From NCBI RefSeq assembly GCF_029639405.1, contig NZ_CP121274.1, positions 1-64,000 of the forward strand: a stretch of DNA of 64,000 nucleotides, given 5' to 3'. The DNA comes from Microbacterium proteolyticum (lineage in GTDB: Bacteria; Actinomycetota; Actinomycetes; Actinomycetales; Microbacteriaceae). Each line of letters opens with the position of its first letter. Position 1 is the first letter of the stretch. Under the pieces are notes generated by a model. That model was not told the origin of the DNA. It made no database searches and was given only the letters and a program-made list of their open reading frames with translations. Shown in pieces: positions 33,535 to 50,211 of this stretch. The position numbers and the translations under genes were made by a program.

Positions 33535-34353
33535 TCAGGGGCAGGAGCCGGGCGCGCGCCCCTCGGCGGTGTCGGATGCGGCCAGGTCGACGTCGAACTC
33601 CATGCGCAACTGCTGGTCGGTCACGCGCACGTCGCGGGGATGCAGGAAGCTCGGCATGGTCTCGGCGACGCACGCGGGAGCGGGCTGCAGCGTCGAGAGG
33701 TCGATGCCCGCCTGCGCGGCGACCTCGTCGAGGGACAGGGTCTTGTCGCCGACCGTGAGGGAGGAGAACGCCGCGCTGACCCTCCCGTTCTCGAAATGCG
33801 GCGTCACGGCCGCACTCACCGTCACGGGGGTCGTCCCGGCCAGGACGGAACCGCTCACGACCATGTCGCCATCGGAGAAGCCGACCCTCATCTCGCCCTG
33901 CGCGTCCGCCGGGAGGAGGAGCGCCGTGGCCTGAGCCGCGGTGAGGGTGACCGCGCCGGAGACGTTGTCGGCCAAGATGGCATCGTCGACCCGCCGAGCC
34001 CCCTCGATCGTCATCGTCAGATCCGCGTTCGCCCGTCCGGTGGGGAAGCTGTAGACCGTGACCCCGATGCGGTCGTAGCGGCCGACGAGCTCCTGCAGCA
34101 GGACGGATCCCGCGATGTCGACCTCGATGCGCTCGCTCGCGGGGGCGTCCAGCCGGGCGCGGACCTCCTCGACGCCGATCCGCTGGACCTCGGCCCGCGC
34201 GACCGTCTCCGCGATCACGCCCAGGGAGGCCACCAGGATCAGCAGGAGGCCGGCGAGGGCGACGATCAGCAGCCCCCACCGCGGGCGCGCGGGTTCGGGG
34301 TCCTCCGTCTCCGGCGGCCGCGGCAGCACGTCGGTCTGGTCGAGGTGGGTCAT
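33535..34353 (-). CDS. LmeA-like (DUF2993) phospholipid-binding membrane protein
   Basis: The 272-residue protein has a Pro-rich cytoplasmic N-terminus and one membrane segment (LLIVALAGLLLILVASLGVIA, about 28-48). The extracellular DUF2993 domain includes VRARLDAPASERIEVDIAGS, LLQELVGRYDRIGVTVYSF and VTPHFENGRVSAAFSSLTVG. LmeA of mycobacteria binds phospholipid and acts in lipomannan elongation. GGAGAAGG precedes the start as ribosome binding site. It follows the second pstS gene by 35 bases in the same direction and may be the last gene of the pst/surface locus. Confidence 0.8.
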   Translation of the reverse strand: MTHLDQTDVLPRPPETEDPEPARPRWGLLIVALAGLLLILVASLGVIAETVARAEVQRIGVEEVRARLDAPASERIEVDIAGSVLLQELVGRYDRIGVTVYSFPTGRANADLTMTIEGARRVDDAILADNVSGAVTLTAAQATALLLPADAQGEMRVGFSDGDMVVSGSVLAGTTPVTVSAAVTPHFENGRVSAAFSSLTVGDKTLSLDEVAAQAGIDLSTLQPAPACVAETMPSFLHPRDVRVTDQQLRMEFDVDLAASDTAEGRAPGSCP

Positions 34354-34388
34354 GCGCCGTGCCTTCTCCGTTGCATCCGTGGTCCGGG

Positions 34389-36086
34389 TCAGAGCCCGAT
34401 GAGCGTGAGCGTCACCGTGGAGCGGTAGCGACCCACCGCGGCATCCCGGGGGATCCGCAGGCTCAGATCGGCGTCGAAGGTCGCGCCCACGAGCGTGGTG
34501 GTCGTGCCCGGTTCGCCGGTGGCGAGGATCATCGGGTAGACCGCCTGGCCCGCCTCCTGGCCGCCCGCGATCGACACGCCGTCCTGATGCGTGGTCTCGT
34601 GAGGCGCGATCCCCAGGAAGGTCGACGAGACCCTCGCCGCCGCGTCGTCGATCCCGACGAAGTCGCTGACCGAGAACTGCAGGCTCCAGCCCCCGAGGCG
34701 GTTGCGGTCGTCGACGACGCTGAAGCGCCCGAGGGACCGAGCGACCTCTCCACCCCCGCGTCCCAGGTCGCCGAAATCGATCGACGTCGAGGTGGGCGCG
34801 GTGAGTTGGAAGAGATCGGATGCCGTCACCGTGGCGGACACATTCACCCCGTCGACCTCGTCGGCGCGGGGTGCGGGTCCGGGATGCCGGTCGCTGTCCG
34901 GCGGCATCGGCGCGGTGCGCAGAAGAAGGTTGTCGCTCGCGGTGTCACCGGGGGCGAACGTCGGGTTCCGGCATCCGTCCAGGTCGATCGTGCCGGACGA
35001 GCCCGGGATCCGGGAGACCCCGTCCGCCACGATCCGGGCGAGCGGCAGCGGCAGGGCGCCGTACCCCAGGCCCGGCAGCTCCTGCTGCCCCTCGCAGGCC
35101 GCGTACTGCACGAACCGGGAGAGGGTGCGCCCCTTCTCGACGGTGAAGATCCTGTTGGTCGCGGTCGGCGCGATCAGATAGGACACCGACGAAATCGGGT
35201 ACGCGCGGGGGTCGAGGCTGCGGTGCACGCGCCTCAGATCGAGCGTTCCGTCCGGGCCCGGTGTCGCCGCCAGGAGCGCGATCGACGCCGCGGCCGGAGT
35301 CGGTGCGACGTAGTACCCGGCGTCGTTGAGCACCTTGGCGACAGGGAGACCGGCATTCGCCGCGTACGACGCTTCGACATAGGTGATCGCTCCCCGGCCG
35401 TAGTCCTGCGAGACGTATCCGGCGACGCCGAGGGAGCCGTTCTGCGTCCGGAACGAGTCGGCGATGTGCGGGAAGACCGACCGCGTCCCGTACGTCCAGA
35501 TGCTCGGATACCGGTCGGCCATCCACCCGGTCAGCTGAGCACTCGAACCGGAGCCGTCCGCCCGCACGACCGGCGTGATCGCCTGATCGGGCATCGTCAG
35601 CGCCGGGTTGTCCGCCTGGATCTCGGGGTCGTTCCACCGCGTGATCCGCCCCGCGAAGATCCGGGCGACGACGGCGCCCGACAGACGCAGATCGGTCACG
35701 CGGTGACCGTCGATCCAGAGGTTGTACGCGAGCGCCGTGCCGCCGGCGAGCAGGGGCAGGTACTCGTACGGCGGCATCCCCGCCTCGGGGGTCGGGCTCT
35801 CGGCCGTCGCCTCGGTCTGGAACGGGACGTCGCTGACCGCGAAGTCGACCGTCTCGGCGATGAAGTCCCTCCGCCCGGCCGAGGAACCGGTGCCGGAGTA
35901 GTTGACGGTGATCGCGTCCGTCCGAGCGACGTCTCTCCGCCACACGTCCAGACCGTTCTGCCCCCATGTCGAGCCGGAACCGGAGAGGGGGGCGAAGGAC
36001 TCGGCCGCCTGCGCGGGAGCCGGCACCGCCAGAGCCGTGACAATTGCCGTGACCAGGAGGAGCGCCCCCCGCACCCCGCGGATCAT
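34389..36086 (-). CDS. PstS-type phosphate-binding protein fused to a WxL-like domain
   Basis: The 565-residue protein has a signal peptide (1-28, cleaved at AQA-AE). A PstS domain follows ([56 protein letters not shown]), a close paralogue of the PstS at 45998-47605. After about residue 400 the paralogue's tail is replaced by a domain with [40 protein letters not shown] and a C-terminal [13 protein letters not shown]. This matches the C-terminus of the WxL-like protein at 40356-41948. It has no lipobox and no membrane anchor, so retention at the surface would depend on the WxL-like domain. It starts in the pstB stop codon (ATGA). Confidence 0.83.
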
Positions 36087-37330
36087 CCGAATCGACCGTT
36101 CACGTAATCGTAGGTCCGCGGGTCGATCGGCGAATCGAACATCGCCTCGGTGTCGCCGTGCTCGACGATGTGGCCGGGCTGACCCTGGGATGCCAGGAAG
36201 AACGCGCACTGCTGCGACACGCGCTGCGCCTGCTGCATGTTGTGCGTGACGATGACGATCGTCAGCTCCTTCTGCAGCTCCCCCATCGTCTCCTCGATCA
36301 CGCGCGTCGAGGTCGGGTCGAGCGCGGAGCACGGCTCGTCCATCAGCAGCACCTTGGGCTTGATCGCGAGCGACCGGGCGATGCACAGACGCTGCTGCTG
36401 TCCGCCGGAGAGACCGCCGCCGGGCGCTCGCAGGCGGTCCTTCACCTCTTTCCACAGGCCCGCCGAGGTGAGCGAGCGCTCGACGAGGTAGTCCTTCTCG
36501 TCGCGCGAGGCGCGCATGCCGGTGAGCTTCAGTCCCGCGATGACGTTGTCGTAGATCGACATGGCCGGGAACGGGTTCGGCTTCTGGAACACCATGCCGA
36601 TGTGCTTGCGCGCGTCGATCAGGCGGTGCCCCGAGTCGTAGATGTCGTCGCCGTCCAGCCGCACCTCGCCGGCGAGGGAGGCCGACGGCACCAGCTCGTG
36701 CATGCGGTTGAGGATGCGCAGGAACGTCGACTTGCCGCAACCGGAGGGGCCGATCAGCGCGGTGACCTGGCCGGCGGGCATCGTCAGCGAGACATCGAGG
36801 AGCACCTGGTGGTCGCCGAACCACGCCGAGATGGAGCGGGCGTCGAGCTCGGACAGGTCGGGGGCGTCCGCCAGGAGGCGCTCGGCCTCGGCGAGGCGCT
36901 CGGCCGTCGCCGACGCCCCGCCCAGCAGCGACACCGACGACGCCCGCACCGATGCCCCCGACACCGTGTAGCCCGCCGACGTCGTGGCGTACGCACCGGC
37001 GGTCGGCGACGCGGGGTCGGGCGCACCGGGGGCGGGGATGACGCTCGTGACATCGTCGGCGCCGGCCGCGGGGACCTCCGCCCCGCGACGACCGAAGAAC
37101 GCGCCGCGGCGCGCGCGCCGGTGGGAGATGCCGAGGCCCGCGCGCGTGGCATCCGGGGTCGGCTCCGCGACGGGGGCGACCGTCGTGACCTCGCCCGCCG
37201 AAGCGGACTCCAGGTCCTGCAGAACGGCGACGTCGTCGGCGCTCAGCACGTCGGTCATGAACGGGTCGGCGGTGTCATCGCCCGAGGGAGCGGCGGCGCC
37301 CTCGAGATCGGGATCGCGGCGGTCGGTCAT
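36083..37330 (-). CDS. pstB: phosphate ABC transporter ATPase PstB with long N-terminal extension
   Basis: The 415-residue protein has about 160 residues of low-complexity, acidic, Ala/Pro/Asp-rich sequence before the normal PstB fold. The ATPase part shows Walker [10 protein letters not shown] (194-202), the PstB-type FQKPNPFP Q-loop, signature [15 protein letters not shown], Walker [14 protein letters not shown] and the H-loop THN. Usual PstB is about 255 residues. I chose ATG 37330 because the frame upstream is Arg/Pro-rich and overlaps the previous gene. The extension may be regulatory or bind the surface apparatus; this is unknown. pstB is far from pstC and pstA here, separated by surface genes. 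Confidence 0.92.
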
Positions 37331-37344
37331 GTTCGGCTTTCGGG

Positions 37345-38301
37345 TCAGAGGAGGTTCGGGAGGAGTCGGATCAGCTGGTCCGAGACGAACACGCTCGCCA
37401 GCAGCAGGACGGGGGCGAAGACGATCCACGTCTTCTGCCACCCGACGCGGCGGTACGCCCAGACGGCCAGGAGCTCGGCGACGACGAGGAACTGCAGGGC
37501 GAAGACGAGCGCCCACACCGTGGTGACGTCCGTCGCCATCGCCTTGGCCTGCGGGGGCAGCGACATGGATGTCGTCTGACGGGCACCGGTCGCCTTCGCG
37601 TCACCGGTGGCCTTGGCATCCACGTAGACGACGCCGGTCGGCAGGTACGGGGCCCCGCGCGCGGCCATGAGGATCAGACGGCTCTCGCCGCGCACCGGCG
37701 CGGGAGGAGTCGGATCGCCCGCGTAGCGCACGCCCAGCACTTCGAACGTCTGCTCGCCCTGCCCTGTGCGCACGGTGAAGTCCTCGCCCGGTTGCAGGGT
37801 CTGGATGCTGCGGAACGGCCCGCCGAACGCGGCGGTCCGGCCCATGATGACGCTGACTCCCGCCTGCCCGGGCAGCACGGTGTCGCGACGGTGACCGGGA
37901 CCCCCCATGAGGACGCCCGAGGTCGTCCCCTCCGCCACCACCTCGTCGATGCCGAGCTGCGGGATCGAGAGCAGGGCGACGGGCGCACCGTCGTCGAGCA
38001 GGTGATCCTCGAAGTCGCCCTCGCTGACCGGCGCGGTTCCCGCCGACAGCTGTGCCCGGAAGGTGTCGCGCAACTCCTGCTGCGACGCGAAATGCGTGAT
38101 GTGGCTCACCAGCAGCACGTTGCCGAGGAACACCAGGATCAGCACCGAGATCGACACCAACGTCCCGCGCAGGAACACCTGCACCGGTGTCAGCGGCGCG
38201 TACTGGGGACGGCGCCGCGGGGGGCGACGCGGAGGCTTCGGCGGGCGCGGCGGGAGGGGGCGCGTCGGCGCCTCGGCGGCGCGGTCTTCCTGAAGGGTCA
38301 T
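37345..38301 (-). CDS. catalytically dead sortase-fold membrane protein
   Basis: The 318-residue protein has a Pro/Arg-rich cytoplasmic N-terminus, a membrane segment (about 46-66), a sortase-like barrel (about 107-232) and two more membrane spans (262-284, 292-310). The barrel follows the class E-like pattern: [40 protein letters not shown] and [19 protein letters not shown]. The catalytic His block, normally AGHRTxxGxPF, reads [11 protein letters not shown] with Arg at the His position. The Cys block, normally LTLITC, reads LILMAA. The following Arg region is also absent. It cannot be a transpeptidase and may act as a scaffold. It overlaps its upstream neighbour by four bases. Confidence 0.78.
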
Positions 38302-39083
38302 GTCGTGGCCGCCACGGGGACCGGGGGCAGGGCATCGCGGACGACCCGCACCGTCACCCACGCGATCGCGACGATGACCAGGATCGCGAGGATCAGCCAC
38401 GGGAAGAGCAGGAAGAATCCGTCGCGCGTGACCGGCGACAGCGCGGTGCCGTCGACGGACTCCGGCGGGGTCAACGTCACGTGCCCCGTGAGCAGCGTCC
38501 ACTGCCCGGCCCCGTGCAACGACGCGGACACGACGCGGGTCTCGCCGGGCTGGAGCGCCGTGATCGCCACGTCACTGGTGGTGTCGAGGCGGTTGGAGAA
38601 CAGGGCCCCGTCGACGGAGAACTCCGCCGTCGCGTCGATGACGGACGTCGAGGCGTTGCGCACGGTGAACCAGAGGTCGACGGTCCCGTCGGCGGGATTC
38701 ACGGACGGAGCCGTGGACCCGTTCAGGCCTCCGACGTAGAGCATCCCGGCCACGCTCACCTCCCCCGCGGTGTTGGTCTGCGGCTGCGTCGTCCCGCCGC
38801 CCGTCCCGCCCGCGCTGCCGCTGGAGCCGGACGTGGTCCCGCCCGACGACCCCCCGACCGACGACCCGGTGCCCGATGACCCCGAGCCCGAGCTCGAACC
38901 GGTGGGTCCCGTCGACGTGCTCGCCGTCGGCGTCGGCGTGGATCCGTCGGTGATCGTCACGGACAGCGGGGTCCCGGCCTCCTGATCGTCGGCTGCGACC
39001 GCCGGGGCCGCCGCGCCCACCACCGAGGCGAGCAGCACGGCGGCGACGACGAGACGCGGTGCGACCGAACGGCTGGGTCTCAC
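38298..39083 (-). CDS. surface protein with Gly/Ser-rich stalk, short relative of the DUF916 protein
   Basis: The 261-residue protein has a signal peptide (up to about AVAADD) and a low-complexity stalk of Ser, Gly and Thr (about 45-105). A beta-sandwich follows (VDLWFTVRNASTSVIDATAE, then GAGQWTLLTGHVTLTPPESV), then a membrane anchor (FPWLILAILVIVAIAWVTV). The motif SPVTRDGFFLLFPWLILAIL matches SPITRDTVTFGVPWMLLILL in the next gene, so both C-terminal halves are homologous. The GTG start overlaps the DUF916 gene stop (GTGA). It is probably the second WxL-interacting component. Confidence 0.72.
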   Translation of the reverse strand: MRPSRSVAPRLVVAAVLLASVVGAAAPAVAADDQEAGTPLSVTITDGSTPTPTASTSTGPTGSSSGSGSSGTGSSVGGSSGGTTSGSSGSAGGTGGGTTQPQTNTAGEVSVAGMLYVGGLNGSTAPSVNPADGTVDLWFTVRNASTSVIDATAEFSVDGALFSNRLDTTSDVAITALQPGETRVVSASLHGAGQWTLLTGHVTLTPPESVDGTALSPVTRDGFFLLFPWLILAILVIVAIAWVTVRVVRDALPPVPVAATT

Positions 39084-40186
39084 GACGATCCCGACTTCGC
39101 GGCGCCCGCGAGGCCCTCGGCTTCGGCGGCCGTCGCCCGCTCCATGTAGTCGACCCACTCACGCGCACGCTCTTCGTCGCGGCGGCGGCGCCACCGCAGC
39201 AGCAGGAAGATCACCGCGGCCAGGGCGAGCAGGATCAGCAGCATCCACGGCACCCCGAAGGTCACGGTGTCACGGGTGATCGGTGAGACCGTGAGCTGCT
39301 GGGAGCTGTCGGGCGAGTCGACGAACGGGTTCAGCACGGTGGACGGGTTGAGGTACAGCCACTGCCCGACCCCGCCGACGGTGAACTCGTACGTCGCGGT
39401 GTTGCCGGGGAGCAGCATCGGGATGCTGCCGCCCTGCAGGCCCGTCGCGGGGATGCCGAACCAGGTCGCGACCCCCGAGGTGAGGTTCGCGGCGAGCGCC
39501 ACGTTGCCCGGGTTCGAGACGGTGTAGTGCAGCTTCACGCTGCCGCTGAACGGGTTCCACCAGTCGCCCTCGTAGGACGCGTCGTAGCTCGTGATGCTCA
39601 GCGCCGGCTGGAGGTCGCCGGACACCCGGGCGAAGATCGACGTGGCGACGCGGCGGTCGACGCTGACCTGCTGCCCCTCCTCGACGACGGATGCCACGAG
39701 GCCACCGACGTGATCACCGGGGGTCGCGTCCGCGGGGAACGCGATCGTGAAGGACAGGAGCCGGACCTCGTCGGGCTCGAGCGAGAACTTGACGCGGTCG
39801 CTGCCGTCGTCGAAGCGCAGCCACGCACCGACCGCGGTCGGGGTGTCGGCGGTCGCCAGGAGCGAGAACGCGCCGTCGCCCCCGTTGAAGGCATCCGTGG
39901 CGTACACCGTGAAGTCCTGGCGCGCGGTGCCGGTGTTGCCGACGAGCACGCGATCGGTGACCGTCTGCCCCGGGTCCGCGGTGTAGGTGAAGCGCGACCG
40001 GCCATCGGGGCGACCGTCTTCGCCGGCGGGACGGGTGGCGACACCGACGGTGGCGGGGGTGGCGGCGGCATCGCCGTCATCGGCCCGCGCGGGGGCCGTG
40101 GGAGGAAGGAGGGCCAGCGTCGCCGCCAGGGCCAGCAGTGCGACGCCCAGAGCCGGGAGGCGGCGACGCGAGGTGAAGGAGAGCAC
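39080..40186 (-). CDS. DUF916 (WxL-interacting protein) membrane-anchored surface protein
   Basis: The 368-residue protein has a signal peptide (ending PARADD). Its DUF916-like domain corresponds to the peptidoglycan-binding part of WxL-interacting proteins (RFTYTADPGQTVTDRVLVGN, TDAFNGGDGAFSLLAT, FPADATPGDHVGGLVASVVE). A second beta domain (VKLHYTVSNPGNVALAANLT) precedes one membrane span (VPWMLLILLALAAVIFLLLRW) and a charged cytoplasmic tail. In Firmicutes such proteins (CscA type) hold WxL proteins at the wall. The GTG at 40186 has GCGGAG upstream. Longer starts would include an Arg/Pro-rich region. Confidence 0.82.
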   Translation of the reverse strand: MLSFTSRRRLPALGVALLALAATLALLPPTAPARADDGDAAATPATVGVATRPAGEDGRPDGRSRFTYTADPGQTVTDRVLVGNTGTARQDFTVYATDAFNGGDGAFSLLATADTPTAVGAWLRFDDGSDRVKFSLEPDEVRLLSFTIAFPADATPGDHVGGLVASVVEEGQQVSVDRRVATSIFARVSGDLQPALSITSYDASYEGDWWNPFSGSVKLHYTVSNPGNVALAANLTSGVATWFGIPATGLQGGSIPMLLPGNTATYEFTVGGVGQWLYLNPSTVLNPFVDSPDSSQQLTVSPITRDTVTFGVPWMLLILLALAAVIFLLLRWRRRRDEERAREWVDYMERATAAEAEGLAGAAKSGSS

Positions 40187-40292
40187 GGTATATCTCCGCA
40201 GACTGCGGCGACGTAGGTATGTCGCGCGGGTGAACGAGGGCTGATCCGAGGGGATCGGAGGCGTATCGGCCAGACCCGGGGCCGGACGCACC

Positions 40293-40324
40293 GTGTGGGG
40301 AGATCGGAACCGATCCCCCCACAC
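40293..40324 (-). terminator. long hairpin between WxL-like and DUF916 genes
   Basis: GTGTGGGGAGATCGG (40293-40307) pairs with CCGATCCCCCCACAC (40310-40324), a 15-base stem with one mismatch and a tiny loop. It follows the WxL-like gene start region's downstream partner by position: on the minus strand it lies in the leader of the WxL-like gene's neighbour, between the DUF916 gene start (40186) and the WxL-like gene stop (40356). It could be an attenuator or an mRNA-stabilising hairpin that sets a high level of the upstream gene. Confidence 0.6.
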
Positions 40325-40355
40325 GGGTTTACTGCGGGTCGAACAGACCGTCAGC

Positions 40356-41948
40356 TCACTTGGAGGCGAGCGTGATGGTCAGGGTCGACTTGTAGTCACC
40401 GGTCTGGGCGTCCTTGGGAGCCTGGAAGGTGAGGTCGGCGTCGAAGAGCGCACCGCTGGTGAGCGTCGAGACGGCCGTCGAGGTCGCCAGCTGCGAGCCG
40501 GTGCCCGTCGTGATGCCGGCCAGCGGGGTGTAACCGGCGTAGAAGCCGGGCACCACGGTGAGGGCGGAGGACGGGATGACGTCGTTCGCGGCGTTCGTGA
40601 AGTCGCTCACCGCAGCGGTGAGGTTCCAGCCCTTGAGGACGTTGCGGTCGTCGACCACGGTGACCTTGCCGAGCTTCTTGCTGACGCTGGCGTTGCGCGC
40701 GACGTTGCCGAAGTCGACCGCGGTGGCCTCGGCGTTGAGCGACCACAGGTCGCTCGCGGTCACGGCAGCGGTCAGGTCGACCGTGTCGGTGAGGGTGTCA
40801 CCGGCGGCCGAGACCTTCGAGAACGTGCCCCACGCCTGGACGGCGAACGTGCCGTCACCCGGGAGGGTGAGGGCGACGGTGTGGTCACCGGCGGGGAGGC
40901 CCGAGATGTCGACGATGGCGTTGCCGTTGGCGTCGGTCGTGACGTTGCCGAGGTTGGTCGGGTCGGACCAGGCCCACGCCGTCAGCGTCTTGTTGGCGTT
41001 GGCGATGCCGGCGGGCACCGTGACGGTCGTGTCGCCCTTGGCGGGCGCCGTGATCGTGACCTGGTTGGCGTCCGAGCCGGCCGGCTTGGTCGGGGCGGTC
41101 GGGGCCGGAGCCGAGACGGTGCCCGAGAAGGCCTTCTCCGCGGAGCCGGCGGTGTTCGTGGCGACGAGCGTCACGTTGTAGGCACCGGCCGTGGTGGGCG
41201 TGCCCGAGATGACACCGGTGGTGCCGTCGAGGGCGAGACCGGCGGGGAGCGCCGTGCCCGACTTGACCGCCCACGTGATCGGCGCGGTGCCGTCAGCGGT
41301 GAGGGTCTGCGAGAAGGCGGTGCCGACCGTCGCGGCGTTGAGCGCCGCCGTGGTGACCGTCGGAGCCGTCGCGGGCGCCGTCGGCGTCGCGAAGGTCCAG
41401 GTCGCCAGCTCGGGCCGCTGGTTGGCCGTGACCGTGATGTAGACGAAGTCCACCTCGAGCACCTGGTTGCCGTTGAAGAACGCGATACCGAGCGAGTAGT
41501 CGCCACCGGCCTGCGCGACCGCGGAGCTGCCCGAGGGCGAGCCGAGGCCGGCGCTGGTGTTGCCGCTGGGCATGGCGTTCGGGAGCAGGATGCCGCTGGG
41601 CGTCAGACCCAGGGGGCCGTAGGCGTTCCACGCGTTGACGTTGGCCTCCTGGCCACGCGGCGAGAGGAACTTGCGGACCTGGCCGGTGTTCTCGGGAACC
41701 GTGAAGACGCTGTTGTAGTCCTCATCGCTGGGCTCCGGCGAGAACAGCGCCGAGTCGTTCCAGCCGAGCACGGTGCCGGCGGGGATCTGGGTGCCGTCGA
41801 GGTCCGAGAGCAGGTAGACCGGGTGAGCGGAGCCCACCGTCGGGACGATCGCAGCCGACGCCGTGGCGGCGGGGACGATCGACAGCGCGGCGGCGGTCAC
41901 CACGGCACCGAAGCCGAGGATGCCGCGCTTCGCGAGCGAGATCTTCAT
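40356..41948 (-). CDS. secreted WxL-like surface protein with Ig-type repeats
   Basis: The 530-residue exported protein has a signal peptide (cleaved near ATASAA). An N-terminal beta-rich domain (about 32-200) contains [21 protein letters not shown] putative-Ig domain ([20 protein letters not shown], then [20 protein letters not shown]) is followed by another beta domain. The C-terminal WxL-like domain (about 390-530) contains [40 protein letters not shown] and [14 protein letters not shown]. The same domain ends the PstS at 34389-36086. No anchor motif or membrane span follows, so it is probably held by the DUF916 proteins encoded just downstream. Confidence 0.78.
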
Positions 41949-41980
41949 GTGAGTTCGTGTCTCTTTCTCGTTTGTCAGGA

Positions 41981-43147
41981 TCAGTTGTTGCGGGTGACGA
42001 CGGTGCCGGTGGGAGCGCCGAAGCCGAACTTGGCCTTGACGGCCTTGGTCGTGGTCGGCGAACCCGAGGCGCCCCAGTAGGTGAGGCTCGAGGTGGAGGA
42101 GGAGTTGACCAGAGCGGCGACACCGGCGTCGTACGCCGTGTTGTCGGAGGTGATCTTGGCGGTCGGGACCACGATGTAGACCGTGCGACCCCAGTCGGCG
42201 CTGTTGTAGTAGCTCGTGCTGGGGACGAGGGACGGAGCGGTACCCGTGAAGGCGGCCACGCCACCGATGGCGCCCACCGAGACACCCGAGAAGGTGTTGA
42301 TGCGAGCGGCGCCGTTGGACTGACCGATGTAGTTGGCGACGGAGAGCGGGATGATCTGGATCTCGTTGTCGGCGGGCGTGAGGACACGACCGTCGTTCTC
42401 GGGGATCGAGTTGCTGCGCGTGTCGACTGCGGCACCGAGGGTGGTGGTGCTGAGGCCGATCTTGCCGAGGAAGGTGGTCCACGTTCCCGAGCTCGACTGG
42501 AGGCCGAGCGGCTTGAGCGTGAAGCCGGTCCCGGAGAGGACCGAGCTCGCGGACGAGCCCGACGTCGCCGAGTAGATGCTGGTCAGCTGGTCCTTCGTCA
42601 GGTCGTTGATCGCGTTGGTCGCCGCCGCCGCGTTGGCGCCGCCGGTGGCGTTGCCGAGCTTGAAGGCGTAACCGATGGCGTCCTGGCCGAACGGAACGTA
42701 CGTCAGGAGCGTTCCGGCCGTGCCGCCGACCGACGAGCTGCGGGCGAAGTCGACCTGGTCCTTCACGTTGACGCTGTTGTAGGTGAAGGCCGAGCCGCTC
42801 ACACCACCGATGGAGGCGATGAGGGCGTTACGACCGGCGCCCGAGCCGTTGGGGCGGTCGAAGACGGGGCCGAAGGCCTTCGTCTGGATGCTGCCGACAC
42901 CGCCGGCGACGCCGAGCGTGAAGGCATCCCAGGATGCCAGCGACTTGCCGTTGCCGGACACCTTCACCGACGCGCCGGAGATGGTGGTGCCGTTGGCGAG
43001 GGCGCTGACGGCGTCCTGCAGGGTGTCGGAACCGACGATCGAGTAACCGTCGGTGATCGGGTCGGCGTTGGCCGCCGACGCCATGCCGGCGCCGGCAAGG
43101 GCGACACCAACAGCCGCGCCGAACGCGACGATTCGCTTGAGCTTCAT
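41981..43147 (-). CDS. PstS-like secreted substrate-binding protein
   Basis: The 388-residue exported protein has a signal peptide (up to ASAANA-DP). It carries the phosphate-binding-type blocks [33 protein letters not shown] and VDFARSSS, which match the actinobacterial PstS-like group. The C-terminal half ([20 protein letters not shown], then [14 protein letters not shown]) is typical of the fold. No lipobox or anchor is present. It precedes the WxL-like gene by 32 bases and probably works with the surface complex. The ligand could be phosphate or another oxyanion. Confidence 0.78.
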
Positions 43148-43208
43148 TTCTTCCTGTCTTTTCGGGTGCAGAGGGTGGGTGCTGCGAAGAAGCCGGCTGG
43201 TGCAGGCT

Positions 43209-45842
43209 TCAGGTGACCCGTCTTCTCAGACGGGTGATCAGGGGCACACCGACGGCACTGACCAGACCGGCCAGCACGCTGATGGGCAGGGCGGCGCCGA
43301 TGGCACCGCCGTCGGGATCGTCGGGGGTCTTGCCCCCGGCGAGGGCACCGCTGGACGCTCCGGTCGCGGCGGCGGGGGTGGATTCGGTCGCCGCGGGAGC
43401 GACCGGAGCCGAGGCGGCACCCGAGGAGCCCGACGAGACGACGCCCGTCGAGGCCGCGGCCTGCTGCGAAGGGATGTAGGAGCCCCCGGACGACGGCGCG
43501 GGGGATGCCGTCGCCTTGGGTCCGTTCTGCATCACGTCCGCGGCTTCCTTCGCCTGTTCGATCCACGCCGCCGGAAGTGCGACGTAGCCGTCGGGCAGCT
43601 CCCCCACCCCGGTCCCCGGGGTCTGGGCCTGGGTGCCCACCGCGAACCGGACGAGGTTCGCGTAGGCCGCGCGCAGCGTGGGATCGGTCAGGGTGGCGTT
43701 GGTCGCCGCGTACACCGGCATGGTGAGCGGGTACGCGTCCCGCGCGCCGGCGGCCACCGACGAGGTGGGGTCGAACGCGACGACGCGGTCCCCCGCGCCC
43801 GCCGGCGTCATGACGTCGGCGGCGGCCCGCATCGCGGTGCTCGACGGAGCGGTGAACGTGCCGGCGGGGTTCCGCAACGACGCCGTGACGACCTGGAAGC
43901 GCGCGGCGGCGGCGGCGCTGGTCAGGCCGAGCAGACGCTGGCTCCCCGGGAGCATGCGGGGGTTCTTGCCGTACTTGGGCGGGATGGAGTTCGGGTCCCA
44001 CTGGCCGGGGCCCTGACCGTCGCCGCGGAGCGTCAGATAGGCGATGGCGGAGAGGTCGTTGGCGTAGGGGCGCCACGTCACGAGGTTGATGGGGGCCTGA
44101 TTCGCGGGCACGACCTCGACAGGGTCGGCCTTGGGGAAATCGTCGCGGTCGAGCGAGAAGGGCACCTTCGTCGGGTTGACGTCCGCGTCCGTGGAGTACC
44201 AGGGGTTCACGATCATGCCCCACGGGTCGGGCTTGCTCGCGAGGAAGTCCATCGCGTCCTTGTCGGAGGAGATGTACTTCCAGACCGCGCGGGCGGCATC
44301 CGATCGGCCCTGCGGGACGATGACGTCAGCGATGGCGGCGCCCTGGAGGTCCTGGGCCTGCCATTCCGGGTCGTTCACGGCGAGGAAGTCCGGATCCCGC
44401 GTGATGTTGTACTCGTTGGTCCCGGTCAGGTAGGTCTGGTCCGCCCCGGTCGGGATCGACGAGCGGTACGAGTAGCTGAGGAGCTTCGCGAGCAGCCGGG
44501 GCGTGAGGTTCACGCTGCTGAACGGGGTGCGCGCCTTGTCCTTCCACTCCTGCGGGACGGTCTTGTCGTTCGGGTTGGGCAGTCGGTCGATCGCGACCGA
44601 GATGGCCACCCCGCTCAGGGCGACGGGGGCGTACGTCAGCGGGTCCTTGCCCTCGGTCGAGAGCGCGTAGCTGGTGAGCGCGAGGGGCGCCTGGTCGTTC
44701 TTGGATGCCGAGAGGAGAGCGTCGGACTCGGCGCTGGTGATGAGGGAGTAAACGGATCCGCCCGTCTGGTTGCAGACGACCGGCTGCCACGACGCGACCG
44801 CGAGGGCGGCGAGCTCGCTGCCGGCCACCTGCCGCTCGGTCTGACCGATCGCGCATCCCGTTCCGACCGGGGCGAAGTCCAGCTTCACCGACAGCGCGTG
44901 CTGCCAGGAGTCGGCGAACAGACCGGACTGGGTGATGTTGGTGGAGCCGTTGTCCGAGGTTCCGCGCGGGAGGACGACGAGCCAGCAGGACGCGCCGACG
45001 GTGACACCCGAGGTCGTGACGGGGTTTCCGCATCCCAGGCCGTTGGACTGGACGGCGGTCTGCACCTCGAACGTGACGGACCCCTTTCCGTCGTCGCCCG
45101 ATCCGACCCAGGGGATCTCGTTGGTCGTGTAGGAGGTGAAGAACTGGTTGGCGTTGACGTCGACGGACGAGTCGATCGTCTTCTTGCCGGTCGTCGCGTC
45201 GCGTTTGATCGAGTCGACCCGGGTGCCGTCGCGGGCGATGAACGGGATCGACGTGTAGGGCGGGAAGATGAAGGAGCCGGGCGCGGTGTACTCGACGTCG
45301 GCCTCGGGCACCTCGTCGATGGAGGCGTAGTTGCGGTAGGCGTCGCGGGTCGCTCCGATGCTGCCCGCCCCGCCGTACTGGCAGGTCGTGCGGTCCGGTC
45401 GCTGCGTGTTCGAAGGATCGTCGCCCCAGCACATGAACACCTGGAGGAAGTTCTCGCCGCCGTTGCCGCCGGCCGACGGTGCGGTGGACTTCTTGCCGCC
45501 CGTCCAGTCCAGACGGATGCCCTGCGCGACCAGACCACGGGTCTGCGACACCGTGACCGACAGATCCGGCATCGGGGCCGTGTCGACCGCGGCATCCTGC
45601 TGCTTGGCGGTCACGGTCACCGCGGACGAGGACGCGGCGGCGGCGGACTGCCCGTCGGTCACGACACCGCCGGACACCAGCGCGAACACGGTGACCCCGG
45701 CGACGAGGCCCGCGGCCAGGGGCAGGACGGTGCGCCGCGCGCCCCGGTTCGCCGCATCGGCGTGCGCGCGGCGGATCCGGAGGCGGCGGCGCGACGGGGT
45801 CGCGGGGGCCTCGGCATCGCTGCGCTCACGGGAGTCAGACAC
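43209..45842 (-). CDS. large surface protein with PBP-like region, anchored at both ends
   Basis: The 877-residue protein has a basic N-terminus followed by a membrane or signal segment (VLPLAAGLVAGVTVFALVSG, about 37-56). Its long extracellular region has a conserved-looking start (SDLSVTVSQTRG-like, then GIRLDWTGGK) and a middle that resembles a PstS fold (LLAKLLSYSYRSSIPTG, GTNEYNITRDPDFLAVNDPE, MVNPWYST-like). A low-complexity Ala/Ser/Gly stalk (about 740-830) ends in a membrane segment and basic tail (ALPISVLAGLVSAVGVPLIT, RLRRRVT). The GTG at 45842 has AAAGGACTT upstream. I do not recognise the family by name. It may be the large scaffold of the complex. Confidence 0.75.
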   Translation of the reverse strand: MSDSRERSDAEAPATPSRRRLRIRRAHADAANRGARRTVLPLAAGLVAGVTVFALVSGGVVTDGQSAAAASSSAVTVTAKQQDAAVDTAPMPDLSVTVSQTRGLVAQGIRLDWTGGKKSTAPSAGGNGGENFLQVFMCWGDDPSNTQRPDRTTCQYGGAGSIGATRDAYRNYASIDEVPEADVEYTAPGSFIFPPYTSIPFIARDGTRVDSIKRDATTGKKTIDSSVDVNANQFFTSYTTNEIPWVGSGDDGKGSVTFEVQTAVQSNGLGCGNPVTTSGVTVGASCWLVVLPRGTSDNGSTNITQSGLFADSWQHALSVKLDFAPVGTGCAIGQTERQVAGSELAALAVASWQPVVCNQTGGSVYSLITSAESDALLSASKNDQAPLALTSYALSTEGKDPLTYAPVALSGVAISVAIDRLPNPNDKTVPQEWKDKARTPFSSVNLTPRLLAKLLSYSYRSSIPTGADQTYLTGTNEYNITRDPDFLAVNDPEWQAQDLQGAAIADVIVPQGRSDAARAVWKYISSDKDAMDFLASKPDPWGMIVNPWYSTDADVNPTKVPFSLDRDDFPKADPVEVVPANQAPINLVTWRPYANDLSAIAYLTLRGDGQGPGQWDPNSIPPKYGKNPRMLPGSQRLLGLTSAAAAARFQVVTASLRNPAGTFTAPSSTAMRAAADVMTPAGAGDRVVAFDPTSSVAAGARDAYPLTMPVYAATNATLTDPTLRAAYANLVRFAVGTQAQTPGTGVGELPDGYVALPAAWIEQAKEAADVMQNGPKATASPAPSSGGSYIPSQQAAASTGVVSSGSSGAASAPVAPAATESTPAAATGASSGALAGGKTPDDPDGGAIGAALPISVLAGLVSAVGVPLITRLRRRVT

Positions 45843-45963
45843 GGGTGAAGTCCTTTGGTTCTGCGGGTGGCTGGACACCCTCGTCGAGCTAAAAGCGCGC
45901 GGGTGACGTCCGGATGAACGTGCCCACAACGAGATACCGATGCGGTGTGCTCCAGACGCGAAC

Positions 45964-45986
45964 GCTTCCGGCGGCGGGCCGGAAGC
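45964..45986 (-). terminator. hairpin after pstS, probable partial terminator
   Basis: GCTTCCGGC (45964-45972) and GCCGGAAGC (45978-45986) form a perfect 9-bp stem with a GGCGG loop, 12 bases after the pstS stop. Such hairpins after binding-protein genes often stabilise the upstream message or allow only partial read-through, so that binding protein exceeds transporter. The 155-base gap beyond it may also hold a secondary promoter. Confidence 0.6.
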
Positions 45987-45997
45987 CGACGGCTGCG

Positions 45998-47605
45998 TCA
46001 CCGACGGTTCGAGCGCGCGCCGGAGCGCCGCGAGACCACGGGCGGGATGACGATCGCGGCGACCACGAAGAGAGCGGCGACGAGCATCATGTACTGCGGC
46101 GGGCCCCACACGTCGTCGGCCAGCGTGAACGGTGACGACACGGCCGCGTTCGCCGCGGCCCCTCCCCCGGAGACCAGGACGCCGTTCGCGTCGTACACCG
46201 GGTCGGACGCGGTCCCGGCCGCCGCGTCAGCGGTCCCCGCAGCCGCGCCCGAAGCTGCTGCCGCCCCGCCCGCGGCCGCCGCCGCGTCGGCGCTGTTCGC
46301 GCCCCCCGACACTCCACCCGAACCGGTCGCGGGCGTGGCCTCCTGGGCTCCACCGGTTCCCTCGACGCACTGCGTCGCGCCCTGCTTGTCGCAGTCCGGC
46401 GGATTGGGCGCCGAAGCGGCGAGCTGGTTGTTCGCGGGTGAGTCGCCCGGCTTGAAGGTGGGGTTGTTGCACTTGTTGAAGTCGACCGGTCCCTCGGTGC
46501 CGGGAATGGCCTTGAGCACCTCGGAGCCCGCCTGCACCAGGTTCATCGGCAGGGGCGAATAGCCCAGCGCCGAGGCCTGCTGCTGACCCTCGCACAGCAT
46601 GTAGTTCGCGAACCGGCTGAGGGTCTTGCCCTTCTCCGTCGTGAAGAGCTTGTTCGTCTGCGTCGGGACGATCATGTACGAGTAGCTCGACATCGGGTAC
46701 GCGCGCGGATCCGTGCTGTTGTACACGCCGTCGAGGTTCTGCGTGAGGTCGGGGTTGATCGCCGCCGACATCAGCGCCACGGCGACCGACTGGTACGTCG
46801 GCTCGACGTAGTACCCGGCCTTGTTGAGCACCTTCACCACCGGGAAGCCCGACTTCATCGCGTAGGAGTACTCGACGTAGGTGATGGCCCCCTCGCCGTA
46901 GTCCTGGCTGACGTATCCCGCGACGCCGAGCGAGCCGTTCTGACCCTTGAACGAGGCGTTGATCTGCGGGAACTGCGACCGCATGCCCTGCGTCCAGATG
47001 TTGCCGAACTGCTTCGACATCCAGAGGGTGAACTGCGCGCTCGTGCCGGAACCGTCGGAGCGGTAGACCGGCGTGATGCCGCGGTCGGGCATCGCGAGGG
47101 CGGGGTTGTCGGCCTGGATCGCGGGATCGTTCCACTTGGAGATCTGCCCGCTGAAGATCTTCGCGATCACCTCGCCGGAGAGGCGGAGGTTGGTGACGCG
47201 CTTGCCGCCGATCTTGAGGTTGTACATCAGGGACGTACCACCGGCGACGATCGGCATGTACGCGAACCTGCCCTGCAGCGGCGTGCCGTCGCTGAACGTC
47301 GTCTCGGGCGCCGAGCCGTCCTCGGGGTTGTCCTGGAACGGGATCTCGCTGATCGCGAAGTCGACCGTGCTGTTGCGGAAGTCGGTGCGACCAGCGCTGG
47401 ATCCGGTGCCGGAGTAGTTCACCGTCATGCCGTAGTTGCTCGCGACGTTCTTGCGCCACTGGTCGAGCGCGTTCTGCGACCACGTCGAGCCGGAACCGGA
47501 GATCGGGACGTACCCGTCGGCGTGCGCGGGCGCCGGGATGAGCGCGACGAGGGAGACGGCCGCGAGCACCGCGGCGAGGCGGGCCCAGCGGGGACGGGAT
47601 TTCAC
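45998..47605 (-). CDS. pstS: phosphate-binding protein PstS with C-terminal membrane anchor
   Basis: The 535-residue protein has a signal peptide (cleaved near PAHA-DG). The PstS fold is clear: [60 protein letters not shown] and [20 protein letters not shown]. Instead of the usual lipobox it ends in a long Ala/Gly/Ser stalk, a membrane segment (PQYMMLVAALFVVAAIVIPP) and a basic tail, so it is anchored at the C-terminus. The GTG start overlaps the pstA stop (GTGA). It is paralogous to the PstS at 34389-36086. Confidence 0.92.
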   Translation of the reverse strand: MKSRPRWARLAAVLAAVSLVALIPAPAHADGYVPISGSGSTWSQNALDQWRKNVASNYGMTVNYSGTGSSAGRTDFRNSTVDFAISEIPFQDNPEDGSAPETTFSDGTPLQGRFAYMPIVAGGTSLMYNLKIGGKRVTNLRLSGEVIAKIFSGQISKWNDPAIQADNPALAMPDRGITPVYRSDGSGTSAQFTLWMSKQFGNIWTQGMRSQFPQINASFKGQNGSLGVAGYVSQDYGEGAITYVEYSYAMKSGFPVVKVLNKAGYYVEPTYQSVAVALMSAAINPDLTQNLDGVYNSTDPRAYPMSSYSYMIVPTQTNKLFTTEKGKTLSRFANYMLCEGQQQASALGYSPLPMNLVQAGSEVLKAIPGTEGPVDFNKCNNPTFKPGDSPANNQLAASAPNPPDCDKQGATQCVEGTGGAQEATPATGSGGVSGGANSADAAAAAGGAAAASGAAAGTADAAAGTASDPVYDANGVLVSGGGAAANAAVSSPFTLADDVWGPPQYMMLVAALFVVAAIVIPPVVSRRSGARSNRR

Positions 47606-48942
47606 GACGGGTTCTCCTCGGAGGGTGGGGCGGTTCGTTTGGTGAGGGCGCGCTCGGCGAGGCGCCACTCGAGATCGACGGGGGGCTTCCCCTTGGGGGG
47701 ACGGACCTTGCGCGCGGCACGCGTCGTGGGCGGGGTGTCCGAGCCCCCGCTGATGCGCTGCAGGTCACGCGCCGACGCGACGGCCGCGGCGCGGCGCTGG
47801 CGATCGGAGAGCTGCCCGGGTCCGCGGCCGCCGATCAGGCGGGCGATGATGAACAGGGTCAGCACGAGCAGGACGAGGGTGGCGGCCGCGCCGAAGCCGC
47901 GCGCGATCATGTTCGGTTCGGGCGACTTGACGAAGTCGAACACCTGCAGCGGCAGCGAGATCATCGGACCCGAGAAGGGGTTCAGGTTCATCTCGGCCGT
48001 CACGCCGGAGGTCAGCAGCACGGGCGAGGTCTCCCCGATCCCGCGGGCCGTGCCGAGGATCACGGCGGTCACCAGGCCCGAGCGCGAAGTCGGTAGGACG
48101 ACGCTCCACACGGTCTTCCACCGGCTCGTCCCCAACGCGTACGAGGCCTCGCGCAGGTTGTTCGGCACGAGCCTCAGGACGACGTCGGAGGCCCGGATGA
48201 TGATGGGCAGCATCATCACGCTGATGGCCAGGGATGCCGCGAATCCGGAGCGCTGATTGGTGATGAGGGTCACCACGGCGGCGTAGACGAAGAGGCCGGC
48301 CACAATCGAGGGCAGCGCCGTCATGGCATCCGAGATCGTCCGGACGAACCGGGCGAACGGGCCGCCGATCTCGTTGAGGAAGACCGCGGTGGTCACCCCG
48401 AGCGGGATCGTGATGATCAGCGCGATGCTGATCTGGATGAGGGTTCCCACGATCGCGTGGGCGATGCCGCCCATCGTGAGGGGGTCGAGGGGTCCGGCCA
48501 GCTTCATCGTCTCGGCGAAGAAGTTGAAGTGGACCAGCGCCGATGACCCGCGCACGAGCGTGAAGAAGACGACGAACGCGAGAGCACCGAGGAGGACCAC
48601 GCCCGCCGAGTAGAACAGCGCCGTCATGATGCGTTCGCTGATCGCCAACCGGTCCGCGCGCATCGCCGTCATGACGGCGTAAATGCCGAGGAACCCGATG
48701 AACGACAGCACGATCCACCCGACGACACCCGTCATCGGCGTGAGCCAGCCGAACATGAGGCTGGACAGCGCGATGCCCGCCGCCGCACTGCCGATCAGAT
48801 CGAACCGGTCGCCGAAGGGCACCGTCCGCACGTCTCGCCGTTCGCCGACGGTCCCGAGCCGCACCGGGATGGAAGTCCGGGAGCGGCTCGACTCGTCGTC
48901 GTCGGGCGTGGACGGCGGCGCTTCGGTGGTGAGGATGGCCAT
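47602..48942 (-). CDS. pstA: phosphate ABC transporter permease PstA
   Basis: The 446-residue permease has an N-terminal disordered stretch, two extra membrane segments (about 47-90), then the normal PstA membrane domain. That domain includes ITIPLGVTTAVFLNEIGGPF, the EAA-type loop NNLREASYALGTSRWKTVWS and GIGETSPVLLTSGV. A C-terminal cytoplasmic tail of about 70 charged residues follows. Typical PstA is about 290-300 residues, so both ends are extended. The start overlaps the pstC stop by one base (TGATG). Confidence 0.93.
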   Translation of the reverse strand: MAILTTEAPPSTPDDDESSRSRTSIPVRLGTVGERRDVRTVPFGDRFDLIGSAAAGIALSSLMFGWLTPMTGVVGWIVLSFIGFLGIYAVMTAMRADRLAISERIMTALFYSAGVVLLGALAFVVFFTLVRGSSALVHFNFFAETMKLAGPLDPLTMGGIAHAIVGTLIQISIALIITIPLGVTTAVFLNEIGGPFARFVRTISDAMTALPSIVAGLFVYAAVVTLITNQRSGFAASLAISVMMLPIIIRASDVVLRLVPNNLREASYALGTSRWKTVWSVVLPTSRSGLVTAVILGTARGIGETSPVLLTSGVTAEMNLNPFSGPMISLPLQVFDFVKSPEPNMIARGFGAAATLVLLVLTLFIIARLIGGRGPGQLSDRQRRAAAVASARDLQRISGGSDTPPTTRAARKVRPPKGKPPVDLEWRLAERALTKRTAPPSEENPS

Positions 48943-49961
48943 CAGTTGCTCTCCGCTCCGGACCGGCTCCGCGCGACGATGGTGGATGCCGTGAAGTTGA
49001 CGATGAGCGTGATGATGAACAGCACGAGACCCGCGGCCATGAGCGCCGAGAGGCCGAACTGGCTCGCCTCGCCGTAGCGGAGCGCGATGAGGGCGGACAC
49101 CGAGTTCGTGCCGGTCTTCAGCACCTGCGGGTTGATCGTGAAGATCGGCGAGATGATCATCACGACGGCGATGGTCTCGCCCAGGGCGCGGCCGAGGCCG
49201 AGCATCGTGCCGCCGATGATGCCGCCGCGGCCGAACGGCAGCACGACGGAGGTGATCATGCCCCACCGCGTGGAACCGAGCGCGAGCGCGCCTTCGCGCT
49301 CGCCGAGCGGAGCCTGCGAGAACGCCTCGCGCATGACCGAGGTCTGCGTCGGCACGACCATGAGCGCCACCACGATGCCGGCGATGAAGGCCGAGGACGT
49401 GAAGGCGCCGGCCTCGGTCAGACGCGCACCCGACGGGTCGGTGACCGCGAAGATCGGGATCCAGGCGAAGTAGGTGGAGATCCACTGCGCGACCGGGATC
49501 ACGCCCGACTGCAGGAAGAACACGCCCCACAGGCCGAACACGACGCTGGGGACCGCGGCCATGAGGTCGACCATCGTGATGAGGAGCGACCGGGCCCGCA
49601 CCGGCACGATCTCGCTGATGAGGAGGGCCGTCCCCATCGCGAGCGGCACGGAGACCGCCATCGCGATGAGCGCGATCGTGACCGTTCCGAACAGCACCGC
49701 CGCAACGCCGAAGCTGCCGGTCTCGGGCGACCACTCCTGCGTGGTGAGGAACGACGGCCCCGCGACGCTGAGCGCGTCACCCGCGCGGATGCTGAGGAAG
49801 ATGCCGACCGCGAGCATGATCGCCACGGTGATCGAGCCCGCGGAGTAGGCGGCCCCGCGGAAGACCCGGTCCGCCTGCACCGGACGGCTCTTCAGCGAGC
49901 GGCGGACCGGAGCCTGCTGCTCGGATCGAGGAGGAAGAACCTCCGTGGTGGTGTCCGTCAT
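48942..49961 (-). CDS. pstC: phosphate ABC transporter permease PstC
   Basis: The 339-residue permease pairs with PstA to form the phosphate channel in the membrane. It has about six spans (AYSAGSITVAIMLAVGIFLS onward) and the EAA-type loop EREGALALGSTRWGMITSVV. Other blocks are FGRGGIIGGTMLGLGRALGE and VVPTQTSVMREAFSQAP. I chose ATG 49961 (MTDTTTEVLPPRSEQQ), with GGAG at about 8 bases upstream, instead of the in-frame ATG at 50003. It is the first gene of the locus. Confidence 0.93.
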   Translation of the reverse strand: MTDTTTEVLPPRSEQQAPVRRSLKSRPVQADRVFRGAAYSAGSITVAIMLAVGIFLSIRAGDALSVAGPSFLTTQEWSPETGSFGVAAVLFGTVTIALIAMAVSVPLAMGTALLISEIVPVRARSLLITMVDLMAAVPSVVFGLWGVFFLQSGVIPVAQWISTYFAWIPIFAVTDPSGARLTEAGAFTSSAFIAGIVVALMVVPTQTSVMREAFSQAPLGEREGALALGSTRWGMITSVVLPFGRGGIIGGTMLGLGRALGETIAVVMIISPIFTINPQVLKTGTNSVSALIALRYGEASQFGLSALMAAGLVLFIITLIVNFTASTIVARSRSGAESN

Positions 49962-50211
49962 GCGCTCTCCGTCGGTCGCGTCGGGCAGGTCGTGCAGAGG
50001 CACCGCGACGGTGTCCCGCGGGGCGGGTCCGGCCTCGCGGCGGTGTCCGGACGACCGGCGACGCGAGGCGCCCGTTGTCCCTCGTACCGGCTCGGGAGGC
50101 CGGCACTGGCGACGCTAGATCCGGGTCGTGAACGCCGCCGGGAGCGACCGCCCACGCCGCCTGGCCGGGAGGTGAACGAGGGATGCCGAGCCCCGACCGG
50201 CCGGAGACGGC
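49962..50211 (-). promoter_or_regulatory. leader of the pst/surface locus with GTTCAC words
   Basis: The 250-base gap between the kinase gene and pstC should hold the promoter of the locus. On the minus strand the word GTTCAC occurs at 50133-50128 and at 50177-50172, exactly 44 bases apart. GTTCAC begins the 11-base unit of the actinobacterial PHO box, and 44 is four such units. The intervening units do not match, so PhoP control is possible but weakly supported. No clear -10 or -35 pair was found. Confidence 0.3.

Follow-up and report, generated by a model that had tools for sequence, protein, structure and literature searches.

The window analysed here is a stretch of 64,000 nucleotides at the start of contig C2 in the 3.97 Mb genome of Microbacterium proteolyticum. 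Between positions 49961 and 33535, its minus strand carries twelve open genes in which a phosphate (Pst) transporter is interleaved with surface proteins and a sortase homolog that has lost its active site. In reading direction these are pstC, pstA, the phosphate-binding protein PstS1, a large surface protein (BIG), a PstS-like protein (PstS2), a WxL-like protein (WXL1), two DUF916-type proteins (DUF916 and DUF916b), the pseudosortase (SRT), pstB, a PstS3-WxL fusion, and an LmeA-like protein. An initial annotation had placed these genes on one strand, and its list holds for all twelve reading frames, coordinates included. It had also described overlapping or short junctions, which with the chosen gene starts applies to nine of the eleven: five overlap by 1–4 bp and four leave 14, 32, 35, and 61 bp. 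The other two are long gaps of 155 bp (PstS1–BIG) and 169 bp (WXL1–DUF916). A scan for sigma-70-type promoters returned 0 promoters, and terminators stayed at chance level, which renders the scan uninformative. The SRT of Microbacterium sp. CSI-V, the nearest relative with a name that was found, is 100% identical to that of the window.

Gene order in relatives

Relatives of the locus were collected by scanning a collection of species genomes with an SRT alignment, and the best 80 of 385 stretches (L027–L106) were kept, so that the nearest relatives are favoured. The family models were built from these 80 loci and the first relatives. Gene order was counted in the 66 of the 80 loci that extend at least 8.5 kb upstream and at least 0.9 kb downstream of SRT. 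The exact order PstS-BIG-PstS2-WXL-DUF916-DUF916b-SRT-pstB is found in 53 of them, and pstB follows SRT in all 66. The single parts are nearly as constant (BIG, PstS2, and DUF916b in 65 loci each, PstS in 63, DUF916 in 61, and the WxL-like domain in 60). Three Cryobacterium loci, one Leucobacter locus, and one locus from a metagenome-assembled genome lack a recognised DUF916 or WxL domain; the gene found there matches the WXL1 model minus the WxL domain. Most carriers belong to the Microbacteriaceae, joined by Propionibacteriaceae, a metagenome-assembled Cellulomonas genome, and Planotetraspora. One 3.4 kb contig (L057) is labelled Stenotrophomonas maltophilia but resembles Microbacterium in holding SRT, pstB, and lysC-like genes; it is probably a contamination.

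At the level of the order, BIG occurs in 8 of 99 genomes, the own genome included and one match (6e-4) being doubtful, and it is absent from all four other congeners of that draw. Of 120 genomes from the family, 26, again counting the own one, have SRT at E<=1e-40. In the phylum draw, 66 of 119 genomes match SRT at 1e-15, of which only four, the own one included, are full length and exceed 170 bits; the remaining matches (up to about 100 bits) are assumed to be ordinary sortases. Within Microbacterium, operon-type pstC (76–100% identity) is found in 12 of 59 genomes and canonical-type pstC in 56 of 59 (own count from the table). Thirteen stretches from eleven other Microbacterium genomes were inspected around operon-type pstC. 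Eight hold the core through pstB, three run as far as BIG, PstS2, or WXL and are then cut off by the contig end, and two stop short of BIG. The surface genes thus follow operon-type pstC in 11 of 13 stretches, the other two being too short, and the operon copies that are present are whole wherever they are visible. A second, more divergent operon-type pstC (58–66% identity) is found in G110, G112, G117, G130, G131, G133, G408, and G412, each of which already has one; one such divergent copy, L207, counts among the eight and keeps the core order without a DUF916b match.

The joining of WxL/DUF916-like genes with Pst genes, which the initial annotation had proposed to look for in Actinobacteria, is therefore a conserved unit. 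The annotation had named surface genes that are missing or displaced in close relatives as a refuting outcome, and the Microbacterium stretches with operon-type pstC did not bring this about. That unconnected genes merely lie side by side by chance would be in keeping with the moderate distance correlations between the gene families and with the two long gaps, but the 53 loci of identical order and the surface genes that follow operon-type pstC wherever the stretch is long enough make such a neighbourhood barely credible.

Transporter core, wall module, and pseudosortase

The permeases PstC (339 aa, 48942..49961) and PstA (446 aa, 47602..48942) both exceed the Pfam cut-off of PF00528. PstS1 (535 aa, 45998..47605) scores above the PstS equivalog cut-off TIGR00975 of NCBIfam (228.4 vs 205 bits) and matches PstS structures in the PDB (4.7e-34). 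It ends in a transmembrane (TM) helix and lacks a lipobox; among its relatives the C-terminal TM helix is found in 67 of 68 and the lipobox in none of 68. The ATPase PstB (415 aa, 36083..37330) has a long N-terminal extension and falls slightly below TIGR00972 in NCBIfam (335.3 vs 343.2 bits). Of 81 PstS open reading frames (ORFs) among the relatives, 76 retain the pocket pattern R.DGSG[T/S], 73 the first-loop pattern, 71 DF.., and 79 a loose GS, while the Walker A pattern is present in 81 of 82 PstB sequences and three other ABC patterns in all 82. The intact motifs of PstCAB and of the PstS1 pocket favour import.

The genome also has a canonical Pst system, so that the locus represents a second one. 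In the own genome, the canonical copy has the order pstS-pstC-pstA-pstB, its PstS carries a lipobox, and its PstC is 41% identical to PstC of the window. A FastTree phylogeny of 77 PstC sequences (one further sequence dropped as short, midpoint root, no wider outgroup) completely separates 56 operon-type from 21 canonical ones, with a support at the midpoint root of 1.0 on the canonical side and 0.37 on the operon side. Canonical-type pstC (39–47% identity) is present, by hand count, in 35 of 35 genomes picked for carrying the operon. This coexistence, the separate position of the operon PstC, and a Trp in PstS1 at a position where two PDB PstS have Phe would fit an importer of another anion or of a phosphorylated molecule (an organophosphate, a phosphonate, or an arsenate-like compound) that is merely under PhoP control. 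The equivalog score of PstS1 and the retention of Arg-x-Asp-Gly-Ser-Gly-Thr/Ser in nearly all relatives speak against a different ligand, which we regard as quite unlikely.

PstS-like domains recur in three further proteins. BIG (877 aa, 43209..45842) was initially described as a large double-anchored surface protein. The N-terminal hydrophobic helix and the C-terminal TM helix agree with this description, which has to be corrected in that the protein additionally contains, behind an N domain (~70–330), a PstS fold predicted by structure modelling for residues 332–778. PstS2 (388 aa, 41981..43147) is a secreted protein whose family matches PF12849 in 9 of 35 members (best 6.7e-11); the copy in the window has no match of its own, and its profile finds PDB entry 9l8j at 5e-7. 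The PstS3-WxL fusion (565 aa, 34389..36086) combines a PstS part recognised by PF12849 with a C-terminal domain that aligns with WXL1. The last gene encodes an LmeA-like protein (272 aa, 33535..34353; PF11209, 47.3 vs 27.3 bits). Both of these peripheral genes had been counted as parts of the unit. The fusion occurs in 7 and LmeA in 8 of the 66 loci, a few of which have short downstream flanks, and both only in Microbacterium loci, so that they are lineage-specific additions, and a place among the core parts is not supported.

The wall module consists of WXL1 and the two DUF916-type proteins. WXL1 (530 aa, 40356..41948) is composed of an N domain, a He_PIG/Ig-like stalk, and a C-terminal WxL-like domain. 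Pfam PF13731 matches neither WXL1 nor the fusion, and it has no match in the own genome at E<=0.001; in the WXL family it directly recognises only 3 of 35 members (best 1.8e-4). The WxL label comes from profile evidence and not from a Pfam score of the window copy. When 8000 candidates were scored with a profile of the WxL-like domain, 46 proteins reached E<=1e-5; PF13731 is present in 15 of them, and hhalign aligns the domain to one PF13731-bearing protein at 5.1e-11. In an alignment of 27 rows, at least 90% retain the first-motif Trp, and the second motif is TLTLTL-like and lacks Trp, so that the dual Trp-x-Leu motif is absent. The initial term "WxL-like protein" is accordingly right as to domain homology and has to be read with the second Trp lacking. 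A search of PDB sequences with the WXL alignment gave no match. The structure model of WXL1 has a predicted local distance difference test score (pLDDT) of 89 and a predicted template modelling score (pTM) of 0.48. Its structural matches mainly cover the Ig stalk (residues 191–388), so the fold of the WxL domain itself is barely tested.

DUF916 (368 aa, 39080..40186; WxLIP PGBD-like, with a C-terminal TM helix) remains below the Pfam cut-off of PF06030 (21.2 vs 27.3 bits). Its identity is nevertheless borne out by the family, in which 33 of 36 members, the window included, match PF06030 at E<=0.01 (best 9e-13). DUF3324, the HBD, is absent among the 14 Pfam families found at E<=0.01 in the 36 members, although a diverged HBD would escape this search. 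DUF916b (261 aa, 38298..39083) had been taken for a shorter relative of DUF916. The two are related, and more precisely DUF916b matches the C-terminal half of such a protein (hhalign 3.3e-28) and has a TM helix as well.

Two further WxL-like/DUF916 pairs lie on the same contig. At ~987.5–990.7 kb (L192:7550–10704, minus strand), a DUF916 protein that exceeds the Pfam cut-off follows a purple-acid-phosphatase-like protein that ends in a WxL-like domain. The two are apparently a wall-displayed phosphatase pair; upstream of it GTTCACC is absent, and only a degenerate PHO-like repeat is seen. The pair at ~602–605 kb (L193:5097–8068, plus strand) has no pst genes nearby, and for its WxL-like protein Pfam gives no match at E<=0.01. 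Since two pairs occur without pst, one of them with a phosphatase-like enzyme, the WxL-DUF916 pair looks like a general display module.

The stalk of WXL1 bears on an alternative in which the locus serves phosphate-tuned adhesion. The surface proteins would bind phosphate-rich polymers (teichoic-type polymers, DNA, minerals, or plant and neighbour surfaces), and the Pst core would act as sensor or anchor. The modelled stalk resembles SraP and cadherin domains, and the pocket of BIG looks altered. WxL/DUF916 clusters have been proposed to serve host contact or polysaccharide use, as far as the accessible portions of PMC10599100 and PMC1534035 go, and the available part of a review (PMC7866108) describes extracellular PstS of Pseudomonas as forming appendages. 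Such a role is at odds with the intact motifs of the transport core and with the presence of pstB in every locus counted, and Ig-type domains occur in only some WXL members; we consider adhesion unlikely.

SRT (318 aa, 37345..38301), a class E-like pseudosortase, has three hydrophobic helices by hydropathy and ends in LLPNLL, an LPNLL-like C terminus that is found in nearly all relatives. It exceeds the Pfam cut-off of PF04203 (40.1 vs 26.6 bits), stays below that of the NCBIfam class_E_sortase model (59 vs 160 bits), and matches sortases in the PDB (4.5e-15), including the class E structures 5uus and 5go5. The initial reading as a dead sortase-fold protein is confirmed in every copy scored. 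The catalytic His is replaced by Arg in 89 of 89 relatives and the catalytic Cys by Ala or Ser in 88 of 88 (one gap). Among the database matches listed (120 of 3449 at E<=1e-60), all 120 have Arg and all 120 Ala or Ser, so that family members annotated as "sortase" in databases are unlikely to be enzymes. LPxTG or LAxTG sequences are scarce in the tails of the surface proteins (PstS1 5/68, DUF916b 1/73, BIG 0/72, and DUF916 0/76), which rules out a general sortase substrate among them. The most distant relatives of the locus combine Pst, the dead sortase, and further PstS-like proteins, and WxL/DUF916 was not found there at the thresholds used; at L189, one PstS-like protein matches PF12849 with 28.5 bits, and a weak match to PstS2 is seen as well. 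Because these relatives keep Pst and PstS-like proteins, SRT is tied to Pst and not to WxL. The sequence comparison suggests the pseudosortase to be part of the transporter and the wall module to be an addition.

Upstream sites and neighbouring genes

PHO boxes of Streptomyces are 11-nt direct repeats, the most conserved motif of which is GTTCACC (PMC6283541, accessible part). In the window this core lies upstream of pstC (50171..50177, minus strand). A second PHO-like unit, GTTCACG (50127..50133, minus strand), follows 44 bp (4 x 11) downstream, and TAGCGT (50112..50117, minus strand) is a possible -10 element judged by its sequence. Of ten Microbacterium upstream regions that were aligned, eight share the footprint of GTTCACC, GTTCAC(G/A), and TA(G/C)C(G/C)T. 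GTTCACC outnumbers every other 7-mer in the 500 bp upstream of operon pstC; the coding strand carries it in 31 of 54 loci and the opposite strand in 2 of 54. Shuffled sequences give a mean of 1.7 and a maximum of 6 in 100 shuffles; the fairer background is that of real 500-bp windows of the named loci, 319 of 2879 of which (11%) contain the motif. Canonical pstS has GTTCACC within 600 bp in 20 of 21 cases and the exact 11-bp tandem in 15 of 21.

A further GTTCACC (40229..40235, minus strand) lies about 50 bp before DUF916 and may be an internal PHO box; it is intergenic only if DUF916 starts at 40186 and becomes coding with longer starts. In the relatives the motif is found in 32 of 72 DUF916 upstreams, with 27 of 37 sites within 150 bp; apart from BIG and SRT, the other five genes tested have it in 4 to 13% of upstreams. 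The idea of a phosphate-tuned unit is supported by these PHO-box-like sites as far as its control is concerned, and the locus is probably switched on by phosphate starvation.

Directly upstream of the locus lies a PASTA Ser/Thr kinase gene (50212..51855, minus strand; PF00069 and PF03793). Although short flanks are common among the 42 loci considered, 25 have a kinase that matches the window model as their upstream neighbour on the same strand; the PASTA domain itself was checked only in the window kinase. A dnaX-like gene borders the locus in the window (53223–56030) and in L190 (18979–19899), a genome outside the window's class, which may point to a chromosomal position of long standing. Signalling by Pst systems is established, and together with the kinase this would agree with a device in which the second Pst system, the pseudosortase, and the kinase report wall or phosphate status instead of feeding the cell. 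The kinase was not found in 17 of 42 loci, partly owing to short flanks, and its neighbourhood may reflect the old chromosomal site that dnaX also borders. Such a signalling device is very unlikely.

Proposed mechanism and known systems

The evidence leans, a little beyond an even chance, toward an accessory Pst importer that is controlled by phosphate starvation and has its own wall-anchored capture complex. PhoP-type regulation, with PhoP presumably binding the upstream sites, would turn the locus on at low phosphate. PstCAB would work as an ordinary ATP-driven importer, to which PstS1, tethered by its C-terminal helix and equipped with PstS pocket motifs, would deliver the ligand, either phosphate or a phosphorylated compound. 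BIG as a membrane-tied PstS fold, secreted PstS2, and, in some Microbacterium, the wall-bound PstS3-WxL would position PstS-like domains at several levels within the envelope and may hand the ligand over to one another. WXL1 and the DUF916 proteins would join into a complex and fix the assembly to peptidoglycan, by analogy with what is proposed for WxL complexes of Firmicutes. SRT, with its catalytic residues lost, its fold profile kept, and three hydrophobic helices, may serve as a scaffold beside PstCAB. The initial annotation had offered either a wall-attached phosphate-capture complex feeding PstCAB or an adhesion complex. The conserved joined unit and the PHO-like sites support this interpretation in part. 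We place wall-anchored phosphorus capture first and phosphate-tuned adhesion second because the motifs favour import, and because additional PstS-like proteins together with a wall module point to capture outside the membrane.

Several observations weigh against a starvation-controlled importer with a wall-anchored complex. Uptake is not an unfilled need, since a canonical pst coexists. BIG keeps the Arg in the profile alignment and lacks the pocket Ser-Gly-Thr and Asp, so it may not bind phosphate, and PstS2, with profile alignments to PstS of only 0.0036 and 0.0071, is too remote to be aligned securely. The loci are related, and the counts overstate independence; distance correlations between the gene families are moderate (Spearman 0.24–0.68). 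Outside the best 80 loci the order differs, with SRT directly after BIG in L024/L025 and SRT-pstB ahead of PstS2-WXL-DUF916 in L191. GTTCACC is missing in 23 of 54 loci, only 9 of the 54 operon upstreams have 11-bp repeats with no more than two mismatches, and the two units of the window stand 44 bp apart and not in tandem. The upstreams of BIG (19/71) and SRT (16/81) also lie above background. A single simple transcript is made less likely by the two long gaps (155 and 169 bp) and by the possible PHO box ahead of DUF916.

A bolder version of the capture complex is a tentative and rather doubtful proposal. The PstS folds would form a chain along which phosphate passes from the outer wall to PstCAB; the pseudosortase would be a permanent structural subunit and WxL/DUF916 the wall anchor, and with the related pair displaying a phosphatase the surface would harvest phosphorus. 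If true, this would be a new ABC importer architecture for single-membrane bacteria. The nearly fixed order in which importer, surface proteins, and dead sortase are interleaved suggests a capture machine that reaches into the cell wall. How substrates pass the thick Gram-positive wall to importers is rarely addressed, and the locus offers candidate parts for this task: a wall anchor, a set of PstS-like receptors, and a dead enzyme that may act as scaffold, seemingly controlled by phosphate. WxL/DUF916 proteins, known mainly from Firmicutes (PMC9772566, available part), would gain a testable nutrient-related role in Actinobacteria.

All parts belong to known families, and their combination, with a conserved pseudosortase in it, was found described nowhere in the open-access literature searched. 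That literature yielded nothing for WxL with "phosphate ABC transporter" or for PstS with "class E sortase" and, in its accessible parts, brought WxL and PstS together only for Enterococcus. The words "sortase" and "Microbacterium" are absent from the main text, as far as available, of a 2021 review of phosphate transport in Actinobacteria (PMC7866108).

The locus shares features with four known systems. As in the Csc/WxL-WxLIP clusters of Firmicutes, a DUF916-type protein with a C-terminal TM helix adjoins a large protein that ends in a WxL-like domain; here, in contrast, the second Trp is missing, DUF3324 has no match, no separate small WxL protein is present, and the genes are joined to an ABC importer. 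Csc clusters encode exclusively surface proteins (PMC1534035), a WxL cluster is defined by at least one WxLIP and two WxL proteins (PMC10599100), and over 91% of WxL sequences come from Firmicutes (PMC9772566), each according to the accessible part of the source. The window holds two WxL-like proteins, WXL1 and the fusion that only 7 of the 66 loci have. Class E sortases share the family profile and the PDB matches with SRT and differ in the catalytic His and Cys, which are replaced in SRT. The PstS proteins of Mycobacterium tuberculosis are lipoproteins and, to our knowledge, have neither a wall module nor a pseudosortase. Common to both organisms are several PstS receptors (PMC7866108, available part). 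The fourth system is the PstSCAB importer itself, with which the locus shares pstC, pstA, pstB, PstS1, the pocket motifs, and PHO-core sites upstream. It differs in that pstB lies six genes away from pstC-pstA-PstS1, PstS1 carries a C-terminal helix instead of a lipobox, and extra PstS-like proteins, a pseudosortase, and a wall module are added to a system that coexists with the canonical copy.

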